Shown here: positions 26 to 23,605 of the stretch, one piece after another | Position numbering within the stretch: the first letter of the stretch is position 1 | Layout: each line of letters begins with the position of its first letter | Assembly (NCBI GenBank): GCA_028871455.1 | Contig: JAGWNF010000025.1 | Span: 1 to 35,148 of the forward strand | DNA length: 35,148 bases | Origin: Alphaproteobacteria bacterium | Lineage (GTDB): Bacteria > Pseudomonadota > Alphaproteobacteria > ATCC43930 > CGMCC-115725 | Direction of reading: 5' to 3' | Translations under genes and position numbers: made by a program | The notes under the pieces: generated by a model | Seen by the model: only the letters and a program-made list of their open reading frames with translations | The model's database searches: none | What the model was told of the DNA's origin: nothing

Positions 26-835
26 CTACCGCCCGACCACCTTCGCCGCCGGCGCCAGCGCCTCGAGCATCAGCGTGTAGGTCTTGTGCGCGGCGTCGTA
101 CTTGACGCTGTAGGCCGACGGATCGGCGCCCGGAAAGCTGTAGGCCGCCGGCCGCGCCACCGCCGCCGCGAAATCCGGCTGCGACTTCAGGTAGGCGATC
201 GACACCATCGGCTCGAGGAAGGTGAGCTGCTTGTCGTAGTAGCCGTAGATGAAGGTCGCGGTGAAGGGCTGGCCGTGGAACTCGGGCCCCGCCGGATTGA
301 CCGCGTGCGCGCCCATCTGCGGCACCGCCGTGCCCGGCGGCATGACGTAGCCCGCCGGCACCAGCTCGGCCGGCGGCTGCTGCGCCGGGCTGCCGGAATC
401 GTTCTCGCTCTTGAACTTCACCTTCATCTGCGCCGCGCGGCTCACCAGGTAGAAGTGGAAGTCGAAATGCGGCACGTCGTAGACGTGCGGCGGCGGATGG
501 CCGTTCGCCTCCCAGTCCATCACCACGTGATTGACCGCGGTGCGCGGACCCTGGCGCGGCATCGCCAGCCGATAGGGGAAGTCGTCCTTGGTCTTGGTCG
601 CGTGGGGCAGGCCGTCGAGCACGCCGGCGGTGAAGACGATGCCGATCGCCGTGGCGTGACCGGCGGCGTCGGTGACGACGACGGTGTGCGCCGTGCCGTG
701 GCCGATGCGCACCGCCTTGCCGTCATAGGTCTTGCCCTGCGCCAGGGCCGGCGCCGCCGCCAGGACCGCCGCCGCGGCCAAGGCAAGGCAGCCCGCCGAC
801 AGGCGCGTGCGCGCCCGCGTGCTCACAAAAACCAT
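26..835 (-). CDS. Secreted DUF5602-like histidine-rich protein
   Basis: Hypothetical exported protein of 269 residues. I start it at the ATG at 835 rather than further upstream because a purine-rich GGGGGGAGAT stands just before it and translation then begins with a classic signal peptide (basic RTRARTR region, alanine-rich core, ALA-Q cleavage near residue 32). The mature part has a histidine cluster, H103, H113, H117, H123 and H127, within the segments NHVVMDW and HVYDVPHFDFHFY, which I recall from the TTHB210-like/DUF5602 family. The family has no established function that I know; the histidines suggest metal binding (inference). It is divergent from phaA and shares its 264-base upstream region. 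Family assignment is from memory of the motif; exported nature is more certain than the family. Confidence 0.7.
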   Translation of the reverse strand: MVFVSTRARTRLSAGCLALAAAAVLAAAPALAQGKTYDGKAVRIGHGTAHTVVVTDAAGHATAIGIVFTAGVLDGLPHATKTKDDFPYRLAMPRQGPRTAVNHVVMDWEANGHPPPHVYDVPHFDFHFYLVSRAAQMKVKFKSENDSGSPAQQPPAELVPAGYVMPPGTAVPQMGAHAVNPAGPEFHGQPFTATFIYGYYDKQLTFLEPMVSIAYLKSQPDFAAAVARPAAYSFPGADPSAYSVKYDAAHKTYTLMLEALAPAAKVVGR

Positions 836-3745: not shown

Positions 3746-4153
3746 TCAGCGCGCGGCCGGCTCCCAGCCCGCGGGCGCCAGCTCGAAGCCGGTGAAATCG
3801 AAAGGCGGCGCCACGGTGCAGCCCATCAGGCTCCACGCGCCGAGGCTCCGCGCCGCCTGCCAGCAGCGCGGCGGTACGACGATCTGCGGCCGCTCGCCGT
3901 GCGCGACGTCGCGGCCGAGGACGTGGCGCTGATGCGTCGCGCCGTCCGCCGACAGGCGCAGCTCGAGCGCCGCGCCGGCGTAGAAATGCCAGGTCTCGCT
4001 CGGCGCGATACGATGCCAGTGCGACGCCTCGCCGGCGCGCAGCAGGTAATAGATCGCGGTCGACGCCGCGTCGCGGAAGGTCTCGCGGAACCAGCCGCCT
4101 TCGGGATGGCGCTTGAGGTCGAGCGCGCGGATGACCGACTCAGCATCTGGCAT
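3746..4153 (-). CDS. DUF985-type cupin protein
   Basis: 135-residue single-domain cupin. It opens with the DUF985/cupin_5 signature LKRHPEGGWFRETF and continues to AIYYLL and SHWHR, with H45, H47, E53 and H56 as candidate metal or sugar-binding residues in the first cupin motif. Length matches the family (about 130-170). The in-frame ATG at 4153 is preferred to earlier starts because upstream translation is arginine-rich shadow sequence. Members have been proposed to be epimerase-like or sugar binding, but no reaction can be assigned here. It lies downstream of the GST gene, from which it is separated by a strong hairpin. Confidence 0.8.
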   Translation of the reverse strand: MPDAESVIRALDLKRHPEGGWFRETFRDAASTAIYYLLRAGEASHWHRIAPSETWHFYAGAALELRLSADGATHQRHVLGRDVAHGERPQIVVPPRCWQAARSLGAWSLMGCTVAPPFDFTGFELAPAGWEPAAR

Positions 4154-13062: not shown

Positions 13063-13126
13063 TGTTTTCTTTGCTTTCGCAGGCCCCAGGGCATATCAAT
13101 GCGCCCGCAAATCCGCGCATTTCCCC

Positions 13127-13987
13127 ATGGCCAAGGCACCGCGCACGCTCAAGACTTTGCGTCGGCAGATCGACGAGACCGACGACCAGCTGCACGACCT
13201 GCTGATGCGGCGGGCGGCGCTGGTCGCCGAGATCGGCGTCGCCAAGCAGGCGGCGCATGCCGGCATCGAGGTCCCCTTGCGCGAGGCCGAGATCCTCCGC
13301 CGCCTCGCCGGACGCCACCGCGGCAAGCTGCCGGTCGGCGCCTTGGTGCGGTTTTGGCGCGAGCTGGTCGGCGCGGCCATCGTCATGCAGGCGGATTTCT
13401 CGGTCGCGGTCGCGGTGCCGGACGACGATCCCGGAATCTGGGACCTGGCGCGCGACCACTACGGCAGCCAGGTGCCGCTGACCGCCTATCGTTCGCCGAC
13501 CGAGGTGCTGCGCGCGTTCGCCGAGTTCCGCGCCGATGCCGGCGTCATCGCCGTGCCGGACGACGGCGTCGACGATCCGTGGTGGCAGGCACTCGCCGGC
13601 GCCGTCGACGGTCCGCGCGTCAATGCGCGCCTGCCTTTCGCCGGCCGCGGCAACGCCCGCGGCGGGCACGACGCTTTCGTCATCGGCCGCGTCAGCAACG
13701 GCGTCGGCGACCGCAGCCTGTTCGTCGTCGAGGCCAGCGGCGAACTGAGCCGCACCGGCCTGCTCGGCGCGTTGTCGCAGAGCGGCATCGGTGTCGGCGT
13801 GCTGGCGCAGCTGCGCGGCAACGGTTCCACCGTCGCGCTGGTCGATGTCGATGCGCCGCTCGCCGCGGACGACGCCCGCCTGTCGAACCTCACCGCCGGC
13901 CTCGGCAAGCAGCTCGTCCACGTCGCGCCGCTCGGCTCCTACGCCAAGCCGCTCGCCCGCGAAGCCGCCCGTCTGGCGGCGAAGTGA
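13127..13987 (+). CDS. AroQ-type chorismate mutase with long C-terminal extension
   Basis: 286-residue protein. Residues 1-90 are an AroQ chorismate mutase: TLKTLRRQIDETDDQLHDLLMRRAALVAEIG with the active-site arginines and lysine, then LREAEILRRL. It converts chorismate to prephenate for tyrosine and phenylalanine. The remaining 190 residues resemble a degraded prephenate-dehydratase-like region (FRADAGVIAVPDDG recalls its GVVPIENS loop) and end LGSYAKPL, but the dehydratase catalytic motif is not seen. It is six bases from the aminotransferase gene, and the dehydrogenase follows, forming a compact aromatic amino-acid operon. ATG 13127 fits the mutase start. Confidence 0.85.
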   Translation: MAKAPRTLKTLRRQIDETDDQLHDLLMRRAALVAEIGVAKQAAHAGIEVPLREAEILRRLAGRHRGKLPVGALVRFWRELVGAAIVMQADFSVAVAVPDDDPGIWDLARDHYGSQVPLTAYRSPTEVLRAFAEFRADAGVIAVPDDGVDDPWWQALAGAVDGPRVNARLPFAGRGNARGGHDAFVIGRVSNGVGDRSLFVVEASGELSRTGLLGALSQSGIGVGVLAQLRGNGSTVALVDVDAPLAADDARLSNLTAGLGKQLVHVAPLGSYAKPLAREAARLAAK

Positions 13988-13992
13988 GCGCC

Positions 13993-15093
13993 ATGTCCGC
14001 GTCCAAGGCGCCGACACCGCGTCCCGGCATTCTCGACATCGCCGCCTATCAGGGCGGCGAGGGCCGCATTCCCGGCCTGGCCAAGCCGATCCGCCTGGCT
14101 TCGAACGAGAGCGCGCTCGGCCCCAGCCCGGCCGCGGTTGCCGCCTACAAGGCGGCTGCCGACGACATGTTCCGCTATCCCGACGGCCACGCCGCGGCGC
14201 TGCGCCAGACGCTGGCGCGCCACCATGGCATCGACGCTGACCGCATCGTCTGCGGCGCCGGCTCCGACGATCTCATCCATCTGCTGGCATCGGCCTATGC
14301 CGGTCCGGGCGACGAGGTGCTCTACGGCAAGCACGGCTTCGCCATCTATCCGATCGCGGCGCAGACCGCGGGCGCGACGCCGGTGCCGGTGCCGGAGACG
14401 AACTTGACCTTCGACGTCGACGCGACGCTCGCGCGGGTGACGAAGAAGACCCGGATCGTCTTCATCGCCAATCCCAATAATCCGACCGGCACCTTCATTC
14501 CGCGCGACGCGCTGGCGCGGCTGCATGAAGGGTTGCCCAGGTCGGTGCTGCTGGTGGTCGATTCGGCCTATGCCGAATACGTCGTGCGCAACGACTACGA
14601 TCCCGGCCTCGCGCTCGCGACCGACGCGCCCAACGTGGTGATGACGCGCACCTTCTCGAAGATCTACGCCCTCGGCGGCCTGCGCCTCGGCTGGTGCACG
14701 GCAAGCCCGGCGATCGTCGACGTCTTGAACCGCGTGCGCAATCCGTTCAACGTCAGCAGCGCCGCGACCGCCGCCGGCATCGCCGCGCTCGAGGACGTCG
14801 CCTCGGTCGACAAGGCGCGCGCCCACAACGACGTCTGGCGGCCGTTTCTCGCGCGCGAGCTCGCCGCGCTCGGCCTCGAAATCGTGCCGAGCGTCGCCAA
14901 TTTCGTGCTGGCGCGTTTTCCGGCGGCGCCCAAGGATGCGGCGGCGGCGTGGGATTTCCTGCGTGGGCGCGGCATCCTGGTGCGGAAAGTGGGCGTCTAT
15001 CACCTGCCCGAATACCTGCGCATCACCATCGGCACCGAGGCCGAGATGCGCGATGTCGTCGCCGCCGTGTCCGCCTTTCTGGGAAAGTCATGA
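13993..15093 (+). CDS. hisC: Histidinol-phosphate/aromatic aminotransferase
   Basis: 366-residue PLP-dependent aminotransferase of the HisC group. Landmarks are LASNESALGPSP, the phosphate-binding GAGSDDLI, ANPNNPTGTF with the cofactor Asn, DSAYAEY, and K223 in TRTFSKIYALGGLRLGW forming the Schiff base, then the C-terminal YLRITIG arginine. Placed between chorismate mutase and prephenate dehydrogenase, it probably transaminates prephenate or arylpyruvates, perhaps in addition to histidinol phosphate; which substrate dominates is not decided by sequence. Its TGA overlaps the tyrA start as ATGA. Confidence 0.92.
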   Translation: MSASKAPTPRPGILDIAAYQGGEGRIPGLAKPIRLASNESALGPSPAAVAAYKAAADDMFRYPDGHAAALRQTLARHHGIDADRIVCGAGSDDLIHLLASAYAGPGDEVLYGKHGFAIYPIAAQTAGATPVPVPETNLTFDVDATLARVTKKTRIVFIANPNNPTGTFIPRDALARLHEGLPRSVLLVVDSAYAEYVVRNDYDPGLALATDAPNVVMTRTFSKIYALGGLRLGWCTASPAIVDVLNRVRNPFNVSSAATAAGIAALEDVASVDKARAHNDVWRPFLARELAALGLEIVPSVANFVLARFPAAPKDAAAAWDFLRGRGILVRKVGVYHLPEYLRITIGTEAEMRDVVAAVSAFLGKS

Positions 15094-19664: not shown

Positions 19665-19721
19665 GAGGCATGGCGAGTTGGTGCGTGCCGGTCGTGTTAC
19701 GTGATTTCAGCGGAAAACAGA

Positions 19722-20150
19722 ATGAAGACCGCGGCAGAAGATAAGCAGATGACAGCTGAAGAGAACGCTCTTCAGCGTTATTCGCATTGGGCGTTCAAAA
19801 TGTATCGACATTTCGTTGATGAACGAAATGTGCGCGGTTCAGGGCCAGACAGTTGGATGTATTTATCGATTTGGTTTGCACTGCTTTACACGACCGTTGA
19901 AGGTTGGCAGGAACTATGTCTCACCGATGACGAGATAGATCGGTTATTGCAACAGACGGCCTATGTTTCCCTGCTTCGGCGGTACCGAAACGGCGTCGAC
20001 CATTTCCAGAAGCTATATTGGGATGATAGATTCGCCGATATGGTTGCGAAGCCCGAGACCGCGCGATGGGCAGAATCGCTAACCGAAGCGTTTGGCAATT
20101 ATTTTGCGCGCCGAGCCGTTGAGGCAGATCATCCCGCGTTGCGGCGTTGA
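19722..20150 (+). CDS. HEPN-like protein in an AT-rich island
   Basis: 142-residue soluble protein, all helical by appearance. R89-N90-G91-V92-D93-H94 (RYRNGVDHF) fits the R-N-x3-H catalytic pattern of HEPN domains, many of which are RNases in toxin or defence systems; this assignment rests on that motif and helix content only. Upstream GTG 19701 and downstream ATG 19749 are alternative starts. Base composition is much lower in GC than the neighbours, suggesting transfer. It converges on nrdJ, with 20 bases between the stops. No partner nucleotidyltransferase or antitoxin gene is adjacent. Confidence 0.55.
   Translation: MKTAAEDKQMTAEENALQRYSHWAFKMYRHFVDERNVRGSGPDSWMYLSIWFALLYTTVEGWQELCLTDDEIDRLLQQTAYVSLLRRYRNGVDHFQKLYWDDRFADMVAKPETARWAESLTEAFGNYFARRAVEADHPALRR
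19755..19776. repeat. Inverted repeat at the start of the HEPN-like gene
   Basis: GCTGAAGAG (19755-19763) and CTCTTCAGC (19768-19776) form a perfect 9-base stem around AACG. It begins three bases after the third possible start codon (ATG 19749-19751), so it would fold over the translation start if that start is used. Confidence 0.5.
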
Positions 20151-20170: not shown

Positions 20171-23100
20171 TCACCCGCACTTCGAGTAGTCACAGCTCGT
20201 GCACTGGTCGCAGTTCTCGATGCGGATCAGCGCCGCCTGGCCGCATTTCGGGCACTGGCGCAAGCCCGCCGTCTGGCCGGACAGGTTCACCACCTGGCGC
20301 TTAGCCTCGACCGATGCCGGCGCGGTCTTCGGCTGGATAAACCCGATCTCGATCATGTGCTGCTCGATCACCTCGCCGAGCGCCGCGAGGATCGACGGCA
20401 CGTAGTGCCCTTCCATCCATGCGCCGCCGCGCGGATCGAACACCGCCTTCAATTCCTCGACCACGAACGACACGTCGCCGCCGCGGCGGAACACCGCGCT
20501 GATCATCCGCGTCAGCGCCACCGTCCAGGCGTAGTGCTCCATGTTCTTGGAGTTGACGAAGATCTCGAACGGCCGGAGGCGGCCGTCCTGCACGATGTCG
20601 TTGAGGGTGACGTAGAGCGCGTGCTCGGAGAGCGGCCACGCCACCTTGTAGGTATGGCCGGGCAGCGCCTCGGGCCGCGACAGCGGCTGCGTCATATAGA
20701 CGACGCCGCCCGCCTCGAAGACGTCGGCCGGCCGGGTCTGCGGCGCCGGCAGCGGCAGCTCCGCCTGCCGCGTCGGCTTGGCCTCCGGCTTCACCTCGAG
20801 CACCGCGCCGGTTACCTCGTTCGGCCGATAGGTGGTGCAGCCCTTGCAGCCGAGCTCGTAGGCCTGGAGATAGACGTCCTTAAACTGCTCGAACGGGAAA
20901 TCCGCCGGCACGTTGATCGTCTTGGAGATCGAGCTATCGACGTATTTCTGCACCGCCGCCTGCATCACCACGTGATCGGCCGGCGACAGCTGCTGCGCGT
21001 CGACGAAATAGTCGGGCAGCATCGCGCCGTCGCCCTTGAGGCGCCGGAACAGGCGATAGGCGTGGTCCGAGACCTCTTCCTCGCGGCGCGAGCCGTCCGG
21101 CATCAGCACGTTGCGCGTGTACTTGAAGCTGAACACCGGCTCGAGGCCCGACGAGACGTTGTCGGCGAAGATCGAGATCGTGCCGGTCGGCGCGACCGAG
21201 GTGAGCAGCGCGTTGCGGATGCCGTGGGCGGCGATCGCCGCGCGCACCTCGGCGTCGAGGCCCTGGATCTTCTCGCCGGCGAGATATTTTTCCTTGTCGA
21301 AGAGCGGAAACGCGCCTTTCTCGCGCGCGAGATCGGCCGAGGCGAGATAGGCGGCGCGCTCGAGCGCCCTCATCCACTGCTCGGTCGTCGCCACCGCCTT
21401 GGCAGAGCCGTAGCGCAGGCCGCAGAGGATCAGCGCGTCGGCGAGGCCGGTGACGCCGAGGCCGATGCGTCGCTTGGCCTTGGCCTCGTGCGTCTGCTCC
21501 TCGAGGGGAAAGCGCGAGACATCGACGACGTTGTCCATCATGCGCACGGCGAGCGGCACCAGCCGGTTGAGCTCGTCGAGGTCGAGCCATGCCTGGTCGG
21601 TGAACGGTTCCTTGACCAGCGCCGCGAGATTGATCGAGCCCAGCAGGCACGCGCCGTAGGGCGGCAGCGGCTGCTCGCCGCAGTTGTGCACGATGATACC
21701 GTTGGCGTCGAAGGCGTTGACGCCTGGAATTTGGACGTCGAATACCTCGGCCTCGCCATCCGGTTCGATCGCGGCGATCTCGGCGACAAAGCGTTCCCGG
21801 TTGGGCGTGCGTCGATAGGCCGCCGCGATCGTCGTCAGCCGCGCCTGCTTTTCGACGTCGGCAAAGCCGATCCGCTCGGCGAACACGCCGATATTGTCGT
21901 TGGCGATCACCAACTCGTGGTCGGCGTTGCAGTCATAGAGCTGCGTCCCGCCCTTGCCGTCGGGCAGCAGGTGCGGCCCCGCTGGACGCCGCTCGCGATA
22001 GATCGTCGAGGCGATGCCGAGCCGCAGCAGCATGCGCTGCACCGCTTCGAGCCGCGCGAGATCGCTTTGCGCCAGGCGGATGCTCGCGCCTTTCGCCTGC
22101 GATCCGATCACGGTGCCGTCGGTGTCGAACAGGCCGCGCAGGAAGCCGCGATAGAACGCGCTCGATTGCCGCTCGATCTGCGGCGTGATCGCCTTGTCGC
22201 CCGGCGCCATGCCGAGTTCGAGCGCGAGCTGCCGCAGCGCGCCGAGCGCGAGCCGGTGCTCGTCGCGGCTCGGAACCGCCATCCAGCCGGCGAAATCGCT
22301 GCGATGCGGCAGCGTCCGTGCCGCCGTCAGCGCCGCCGCCATGACGGCATCGGCGCCGGTGCCTTCCGCACCGGCGTTGATCGCATTTCGGCGACGCCAG
22401 ACGCTCAGCACCGCCTTGTCGCTCTTCAGCGTGCCGTCGCCGACCAGCAGTCCGAGCAGATAGCCTTCGGCTTCGCCGTGGCCGCCCGGCCACGATACGG
22501 CGGCGCGATGATCGTGCAGCACGATGCGGTCGCCGGGCGCCAGTTCGCTGGCTTTCCTCCAGCCGGTCGCCAGGCGATGGCGGCTCAGCGCCGACACCGC
22601 CAGCACCGGATGATCCGCGGTCAGGCGTAATGCGTAACCCTCGCGCGTGCGAAGCTTCAGCACTGGCTTGCGGCCGGTGGCGAAGAAGCCTTGCGGACCG
22701 GATTGATGCGTCGCGCCGTTGATCACGGCGACCAACGGCTTGCCGACCAAGTCCGCGACCTGACGCGGCCCGTCCGCAGTATGGACCCAGGTCTCGGCCG
22801 TGACGCACGGATTGGTCGCGCTGATGGTCTCGGCGTAGTGCAGATTATTGAGACGATTAATCCGGTCGATGAAGATCACGCCCGGTTCGGCATAGGCATA
22901 GGTCGCGCGCATGATCTTGTCCCACAGCTCGCGCGCGGGAATCACCTTATAGGTCGTGCCGGCGAAGCTCAGCTCCCACGGCGCGCCTTCCTTCACCGCC
23001 TGCATGAAGGCATCGGTGACCAGCACCGACAGGTTGAACATGCGCAGCCGGCCGGGCTGACGCTTCGCCTCGATGAAATCCTCGATGTCGGGATGGTCGC

Positions 23101-23605
23101 AGCGCATCGTCGCCATCATCGCGCCGCGACGATAGCCGGCGCTCATGATGGTGCGGCACATCGCGTCCCACACGTCCATGAACGACAGCGGCCCCGAGGC
23201 GTCGGCGCCGACGCCCTTGACCGGCGCGCCCTTGGGCCGGAGCGTCGAGAAGTCGTAGCCGATGCCGCCGCCCTGCTGCATGGTCAGCGCCGCTTCGCGC
23301 AGATGCGTGAAGATGCTGCCCATGTCGTCGTCGATGACGCCCATGACGAAGCAGTTGAAGAGCGTGACGTTGCGGCCGCTGCCGGCGCCGGCGACGACGC
23401 GCCCGGCGGGCAGGAACTTGAAGTCGCTCAGCGCCTCGGTGAAGCGCTCGGCCCACAACGCCTTGTCGCGCTCGGGCGCGGCGAGGGCGGATGCTACTCG
23501 CCGCCAGGTGTCCTCGATGGTGCGGTCGACCGCGCCGCCCTCCGGCGTCTTGAGGCGGTACTTCATGTCCCAGATCTGCTGCGAGATCGAGGCGACGGCG
23601 GGCAT
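20171..23605 (-). CDS. nrdJ: Coenzyme-B12-dependent (class II) ribonucleotide reductase with intein
   Basis: 1144-residue precursor; removal of the 375-residue intein leaves 769 residues. The enzyme reduces ribonucleotides to deoxyribonucleotides with adenosylcobalamin as radical source. Extein landmarks are LPAGRVVAGAG and FNCFVMGVIDDDMGS (first redox cysteine), QQGGGIGYDFS, the split N-P-C-G-E motif (N265, C642 as radical cysteine, E644), PYGACLLGSINL, RRIGLGVTGLAD and the C-terminal zinc-ribbon-like tail with CPKCG...CDQCTSCDYSKC that regenerates the active site. No N-terminal ATP-cone is seen. It has its own promoter; a LexA-like half-match box and a hairpin occupy the leader. Confidence 0.95.
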   Translation of the reverse strand: MPAVASISQQIWDMKYRLKTPEGGAVDRTIEDTWRRVASALAAPERDKALWAERFTEALSDFKFLPAGRVVAGAGSGRNVTLFNCFVMGVIDDDMGSIFTHLREAALTMQQGGGIGYDFSTLRPKGAPVKGVGADASGPLSFMDVWDAMCRTIMSAGYRRGAMMATMRCDHPDIEDFIEAKRQPGRLRMFNLSVLVTDAFMQAVKEGAPWELSFAGTTYKVIPARELWDKIMRATYAYAEPGVIFIDRINRLNNLHYAETISATNPCVTAETWVHTADGPRQVADLVGKPLVAVINGATHQSGPQGFFATGRKPVLKLRTREGYALRLTADHPVLAVSALSRHRLATGWRKASELAPGDRIVLHDHRAAVSWPGGHGEAEGYLLGLLVGDGTLKSDKAVLSVWRRRNAINAGAEGTGADAVMAAALTAARTLPHRSDFAGWMAVPSRDEHRLALGALRQLALELGMAPGDKAITPQIERQSSAFYRGFLRGLFDTDGTVIGSQAKGASIRLAQSDLARLEAVQRMLLRLGIASTIYRERRPAGPHLLPDGKGGTQLYDCNADHELVIANDNIGVFAERIGFADVEKQARLTTIAAAYRRTPNRERFVAEIAAIEPDGEAEVFDVQIPGVNAFDANGIIVHNCGEQPLPPYGACLLGSINLAALVKEPFTDQAWLDLDELNRLVPLAVRMMDNVVDVSRFPLEEQTHEAKAKRRIGLGVTGLADALILCGLRYGSAKAVATTEQWMRALERAAYLASADLAREKGAFPLFDKEKYLAGEKIQGLDAEVRAAIAAHGIRNALLTSVAPTGTISIFADNVSSGLEPVFSFKYTRNVLMPDGSRREEEVSDHAYRLFRRLKGDGAMLPDYFVDAQQLSPADHVVMQAAVQKYVDSSISKTINVPADFPFEQFKDVYLQAYELGCKGCTTYRPNEVTGAVLEVKPEAKPTRQAELPLPAPQTRPADVFEAGGVVYMTQPLSRPEALPGHTYKVAWPLSEHALYVTLNDIVQDGRLRPFEIFVNSKNMEHYAWTVALTRMISAVFRRGGDVSFVVEELKAVFDPRGGAWMEGHYVPSILAALGEVIEQHMIEIGFIQPKTAPASVEAKRQVVNLSGQTAGLRQCPKCGQAALIRIENCDQCTSCDYSKCG
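21683..22807 (-). mobile_element. LAGLIDADG intein within NrdJ
   Basis: Intein of 375 residues from C267 of the precursor (CVTAETWVHT, block A) to N641 (NGIIVHN, block G), followed by C642 as +1 residue. Block B is LTADHPVL (T329, H332). The two endonuclease motifs YLLGLLVGDG (D390) and FLRGLFDTDG (D496) retain both catalytic acids. In block F the usual HNF is NAF. Insertion lies between P266 and the thiyl-radical cysteine. The DNA composition is like the host gene, so this is not recent. Confidence 0.93.

Follow-up and report, generated by a model that had tools for sequence, protein, structure and literature searches.

A class 1 intein with a LAGLIDADG endonuclease part in the finger loop of an alphaproteobacterial class II ribonucleotide reductase

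Inteins in class II ribonucleotide reductases (NrdJ) are gathered in the NCBIfam profile NF006207 (PRK08332, NrdJ with inteins; 1684 positions), which represents the NrdJ proteins of the Thermococcales, with the Pyrococcus furiosus RIR1-2 intein, PI-PfuII, inserted between N-P and C-G-E (the NP/CGE site) and reportedly the subject of a study by Komori in 1999. The same NP/CGEQ junction is used by the Methanothermobacter RIR1 mini-intein, a laboratory cleavage tool that lacks the endonuclease and is not known to have a His in block F. The split intein NrdJ-1, again from a ribonucleotide reductase, is inserted after, not before, the radical cysteine.

In the Gammaproteobacteria, a class II NrdJ intein with a LAGLIDADG_3 domain has been described in Azotobacter chroococcum (residues 321-690), along with its absence from A. 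vinelandii, and the same account names Rhodanobacter fulvus as a possible carrier of an NrdJ intein (PMC4465626). The LAGLIDADG intein in R2 of Aquifex aeolicus is reported to split the catalytic residues of the reductase and to be spliced out in E. coli (PMC8772380); by that description it differs from the intein analysed here in that its host is a class I small subunit and it lies between metal ligands instead of before the radical cysteine. Conserved sites are described as favoured by inteins in general (PMC2814812). As to the site itself, the finger loop of class II carries the motif NPCXE (3,175 of 3,347 sequences), the finger-loop cysteine bears the radical in every reductase characterised, and two conserved cysteines, on strands A and F, together deliver two electrons in class I and class II (PMC9669993).

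Here, we describe an intein encoded in a 35,148-nt stretch of contig JAGWNF010000025.1 from an Alphaproteobacteria bacterium (GCA_028871455.1), and refer to this whole stretch as the window. The source genome is a 3.0 Mb draft in 51 contigs with 96.2% completeness. All features of the gene lie on the minus strand. The open reading frame, its translation and profile matches identify positions 20171..23605 as an nrdJ precursor of 1144 aa plus stop, encoding a class II, B12-dependent ribonucleotide reductase. The precursor scores 582.5 bits against NrdJ_Z (TIGR02504; cut-off 399.95), PF02867, PF00317 and PF12637 all match above their cut-offs, and the motif NPCGE reads across the intein junction. 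Translation and allele comparison define an N-extein of 266 aa ending in SATNP (22808..23605). The intein that follows has 375 aa, from C267 to N641 of the precursor (21683..22807), and was delimited from the translation, profiles, alleles and an AlphaFold2 model. Translation and domain search delimit a C-extein of 503 aa with a TSCPD domain (20174..21682), at the end of which lies a translated cysteine-rich tail, C1118-C1143 (20177..20254). The intein starts with CVTAETW and finishes with IIVHN, with SATNP and CGEQP as its flanks. Thus, the 375-residue intein between N-P and C-G-E that the initial annotation had read from the DNA checks in its coordinates, length, junctions and residue numbers.

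The intein matches intein_Nterm (29.1 bits, cut-off 24.5), intein_Cterm (19.4, cut-off 15.6), Intein_splicing (49.6, cut-off 35.8) and LAGLIDADG_3 (85.8, cut-off 22.5), so that, with the NrdJ_Z score of the precursor, chance can be dismissed as the source of the pattern. At E 0.001, the draft genome has no other match to LAGLIDADG_3. Its base composition is not strikingly foreign: GC is 0.685 compared with 0.665 and 0.675 for the exteins, and GC3, at 0.84, is lower than their 0.91 and 0.93.

A search of the window for a cobalamin riboswitch or other RNA family gave none at gathering score. Adjoining nrdJ at its 3' end, a small plus-strand frame of 149 aa without a Pfam match (19701-20150) has a GC content of 0.507 compared with 0.67 on either side. 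Of 694 windows of 450 bases, just 3 are as low, and the frame is possibly a recent arrival. Further away on the plus strand (13099-15093), a 664-aa frame has a class I/II aminotransferase as its C-terminal half, and no Pfam family matches its first 329 residues at E 0.001.

For the comparison of alleles, 46 filled loci were reduced to 27 distinct inteins, leaving out L014, which meets a contig end at intein residue 300, and L053, in which only residues 187-375 were matched. In all 27, the intein is inserted between the P and the C of NPCGE in a class II NrdJ, as read from the DNA junctions. Class 1 inteins are defined by a Cys or Ser as first residue, Thr and His in block B, Asp at F:4, a C-terminal His-Asn pair and Cys, Ser or Thr at +1, and class 3 inteins by a Cys at F:4 and no nucleophile at position 1 (PMC4031507). 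The window's intein has the complete class 1 set, as do the alleles (27/27): Cys1, the first splicing nucleophile, in block A (22805..22807), Thr and His in block B, here T-A-D-H with intein T63 and H66 (22610..22621), Asp F:4 (intein D357) in block F, which reads VFDVQIPGVNAF (21710..21745), His-Asn in block G (intein H374 and N375; 21683..21688), and Cys+1, which is C642 of the precursor (21680..21682). Cys1 together with Asp F:4 rules out a class 3 intein.

As regards the active site, an intein-free protein of the same genus (L023) was compared by alignment with Thermotoga maritima NrdJ (1xje), and positions were counted from that alignment. Its NPCGE cysteine falls on chain residue 322, and the counterparts of C85 (23351..23353) and C653 (21647..21649) fall on residues 134 and 333. 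C322 of the Thermotoga enzyme bears the thiyl radical, and C134 and C333 are the redox pair of the barrel. Since C642 aligns with C322 and lies in the finger-loop motif, it is at once the +1 splicing nucleophile and the radical cysteine. This agrees with the proposal that the intein directly precedes the radical cysteine, and the junctions of all 27 distinct alleles have the same arrangement. The accompanying expectation that the enzyme is inactive before splicing should hold as well.

The LAGLIDADG endonuclease part covers approximately intein residues 107-336 (21800..22489), with limits taken from an alignment to I-Tsp061I (model 107..336), and it matches PF14528 at 85.8 bits. It has two LAGLIDADG helices, each with its acid: GYLLGLLVGDG (22433..22465) with D390, which is intein D124, and GFLRGLFDTDG (22115..22147) with D496, which is intein D230. 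Both acids are present in 27/27 alleles. In 12 of 12 pairs, dN was lower than dS in the endonuclease part, in the splicing parts and in the exteins, the pairs being hand-picked and not independent and the ratios rough because several dS values were near or above 1. The earlier observation that both acids are kept, and that the endonuclease could thus still work, is borne out by these data: the homing endonuclease looks intact and, judged on conservation, probably works.

An AlphaFold2 model of the intein, built from a 27-row alignment, combines a Hint fold with an endonuclease fold (mean pLDDT 92.3, pTM 0.91). The closest solved structures are two inteins with endonucleases, TliVMA (7qsu; Z 27.1, rmsd 4.0, 309 aligned) followed by PI-PfuI (1dq3; Z 26.6, rmsd 4.5, 323 aligned). 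The predicted Hint fold superimposes on NpuDnaB (4o1r) with Z 19.8, rmsd 1.8 and 130 aligned, and the comparison with I-Tsp061I (2dch) gave Z 17.1, rmsd 3.2 and 184 aligned. NrdJ-1 (8ubs) shares the Hint fold (Z 18.2, rmsd 1.8, 128 aligned), but is split and has no endonuclease.

How does this intein compare with its described relatives? PRK08332 is a distant match only, at 79.3 bits for the intein alone (intein 42-375 on profile 941-1241). For the precursor, the match runs from the intein into the C-extein (308-944 on profile 941-1570), so that the insertion site and the splicing and endonuclease parts agree with those of the profile. NrdJ inteins of three Heimdallarchaeota (L015-L017) sit at the same NP/CGE site with all catalytic residues and are 46-48% identical to the window's intein. 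The site is thus used in archaea, since PRK08332 spans the intein and C-extein and the Heimdallarchaeota alleles share the junction. Two Rhodanobacter alleles (L010, L012) also use the NP/CGE site, with inteins 58% identical to the window's, but their hosts are gammaproteobacterial and their exteins 49-50% identical. The Azotobacter NrdJ intein is similar by its published description and likewise has a gammaproteobacterial host. In our literature searches, we recognised no published account of the window's particular intein, which is an ordinary new member of a broad, known family, and the kind of place where it is inserted is known as well.

In one of the Heimdallarchaeota nrdJ genes (L015), we also noted a stretch reading VFDLTVPEKHAYIANGFISHN before SGGGTGF that ends at 4099, whereas the NP/CGE intein follows approximately 475 bases downstream (4574). 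The stretch resembles the terminus of another intein.

Taken together, we consider it very probable that the NrdJ finger loop harbours a selfish element, namely a mobile intein of class 1 that carries a LAGLIDADG homing endonuclease. Such an intein would have come to occupy this catalytic loop of a class II enzyme and would leave the protein by the usual steps, with Cys1 performing the N-S shift, C642 accepting the N-extein and Asn641 cyclising. The exteins would then be joined into a 769-residue NrdJ with C642 as its radical cysteine. At the DNA level, empty nrdJ alleles would be cleaved at the site by the endonuclease part, upon which the intein would be copied in. For the host, splicing would keep the cost down, as would a second reductase, one without an intein.

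This second reductase is found on another contig of the same genome (C42:96536-98686; L005:5943-9629) and bears on the claim, made at the outset, that DNA synthesis depends on protein splicing. It is a full-length class II NrdJ in a frame of 1229 aa, with an uninterrupted N-P-C-S-E finger loop and a cysteine tail, and matches PRK07562 from position 1 to 1222 of 1222 at 2199.5 bits (cut-off 1737). We infer that it is active. Searches of the source genome (96.2% complete) for the class I R2 (PF00268) and the class III NrdD (PF13597) found neither. Because the second NrdJ is free of inteins, the dNTP supply need not depend on the intein, and the claim of dependence therefore does not stand for this genome. 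In all 16 intein-bearing genomes considered (15 from the class sample plus G007), as well as in the intein-free G002 and G003, a second PF02867 gene scores over the cut-off; among the 16, the one examined in full is that of the source genome. Twelve further intein-bearing genomes were reached via their loci, and eight of them have another PF02867 match, although this is a C-terminal piece only in G423 and two pieces on two contigs in G425. Among the four with none, G426, labelled Moorella, has a class III NrdD. In the other three, the Heimdallarchaeota genomes (G431-G433, home to L015-L017), whose completeness is not given, the intein-bearing NrdJ is the sole reductase found with PF02867 and PF13597, and splicing might be truly essential. 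As a background, PF02867 matches 32 of 39 genomes of the family, including 21 of the 21 better ones, counted by genome.

A more elaborate view would be that splicing is a regulated switch: C642 lies near the C85/C653 redox pair, so oxidation would stall splicing and stop the dNTP supply. Redox-controlled splicing exists, as in DnaBi1 of M. smegmatis, where a Cys48-Cys118 disulfide forms under H2O2 (PMC6195587), and an intein-containing RNR R2 construct is reported to have had better iron loading and activity (PMC8772380). Also in favour of a switch, the three Heimdallarchaeota genomes yielded no reductase other than the one with the intein. The suggestion that splicing could be redox-sensitive is, however, a guess. 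Redox control of an intein would call for a disulfide partner of a catalytic cysteine whose bonding blocks splicing. Besides Cys1, the intein has one cysteine, C559, which belongs to the endonuclease part and is matched in 9 of 27 alleles, and cysteines occur elsewhere in other alleles. No cysteine is present at positions -1 to -3, which are P, N and T. Furthermore, the second, intein-free class II reductase would keep DNA synthesis going in the source genome, and a genome of the same genus manages without the intein. Nothing specific in the sequence supports a dedicated redox switch, and we find such a switch highly unlikely. Even so, oxidants may act on C267, C642 or the C85/C653 pair, as they may on the cysteines of any intein that splices through them. 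We doubt very strongly that splicing at the radical cysteine forms a built-in gate, with one thiol serving first in splicing and later as radical site beside the redox pair, and with oxidants or the B12 state setting when active enzyme appears.

Alternatively, the intein could be degenerate, with a change in block F that makes splicing slow or absent, and nrdJ a pseudogene whose loss could be covered by the second reductase. The initial annotation had pointed out that block F has NAF instead of HNF. This reading is correct, as the block reads V-N-A-F and F:13 is N630 of the precursor (intein N364) rather than the usual His. As a sign of damage, though, it fails. Asp F:4 is kept, and Asn occupies F:13 in 25 of the 27 distinct same-site alleles, each of them in one open frame, with Arg (L013) and His (L052) in one allele each. 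According to PMC4031507, His F:13 is the commonest residue in inteins at large, yet dispensable in some. Because Asn is so widespread at F:13 and His is not universally needed, N-A-F is the usual form in the NP/CGE-site intein family rather than damage. The lower dN than dS in exteins and splicing parts of all 12 chosen pairs also speaks against decay. With Asn as the block F norm, we reject a degenerate intein as scarcely credible.

The distribution of the intein fits the preferred reading of a mobile, selfish element. A scan of genome contigs gave 13 loci related to the intein, and carriers are patchy, with 15 of 385 sampled genomes of the class and 2 of 39 of the family (the source genome counted in both). 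We also followed up the earlier proposal to seek an intein-free allele among relatives. Indeed, a clean one is present in the same-genus genome G003, without a scar and with 93.8% identity over the compared extein stretch. At the junction, the 30 upstream bases are identical to those of the window and 3 of the 30 downstream bases differ. G002, also of the window's genus, likewise reads on without an intein, across two contigs. Eighteen empty loci were collected, one genome being represented twice (L023 and L055), hence from 17 genomes. Counted once per genome (L022-L038), NPCGE is uninterrupted in 17 of 17, with L022 beginning at a contig end three residues before the cysteine. An extein tree, which included 4 of these 17, places the window among empty alleles from its own genus and family. 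The simpler reading is a gain of the intein in the window's lineage, rather than precise loss in its relatives. An assembly or binning artefact in this draft of 51 contigs has next to no likelihood, as the frame is open throughout, the exteins are, among the alleles compared, nearest to those of G003 in identity and tree, and 26 further distinct alleles have a related insert at exactly this codon boundary.

Compared with the window, exteins are more alike than inteins in all 18 alleles that belong to its class or bear an alphaproteobacterial label, and inteins more alike than exteins in all 8 labelled Rhodanobacter, Lysobacterales, Eremiobacteraeota, Moorella or Heimdallarchaeota. The likeness of the inteins in distant hosts fits a spread across phyla, though the search selected for this intein and may partly have raised that likeness. 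Horizontal transfer was not supported by a conflict between intein and host trees: neither a grouping of the window's intein with the other intein of the same family (p-AU 0.074) nor a grouping of Heimdallarchaeota and Moorella (p-AU 0.56) was rejected. A search for a co-conversion tract against G003 gave an unconvincing dip, with 0.83 in the first full 90-base block downstream and 0.90 upstream, and just downstream of the junction no compared allele is closer to the window than G003. As regards a phage or plasmid origin, we obtained remote matches in 22 phage records, all below 60% identity with the top-ranked at 26.9% (SPbeta-type NrdE inteins), and 2 plasmid records, both below 60%, and viral contigs searched with six peptide patterns gave none.

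One of the filled loci deserves a separate remark. L007 is labelled Candidatus Eremiobacteraeota, yet its NrdJ exteins share 98% identity with the exteins of L008, from a Lysobacterales MAG, and it is possibly a mis-binned contig.

The analysis corrects two tempting readings of this locus, namely that the intein controls the whole DNA supply of the cell and that its block F is damaged. If a gate at the radical cysteine were real after all, it would give control over all dNTP supply where the gene may be the sole reductase, as in the three Heimdallarchaeota genomes. Lastly, with nrdJ filled in one genome and empty in another of the same genus, the two alleles would make a clean pair for testing homing.
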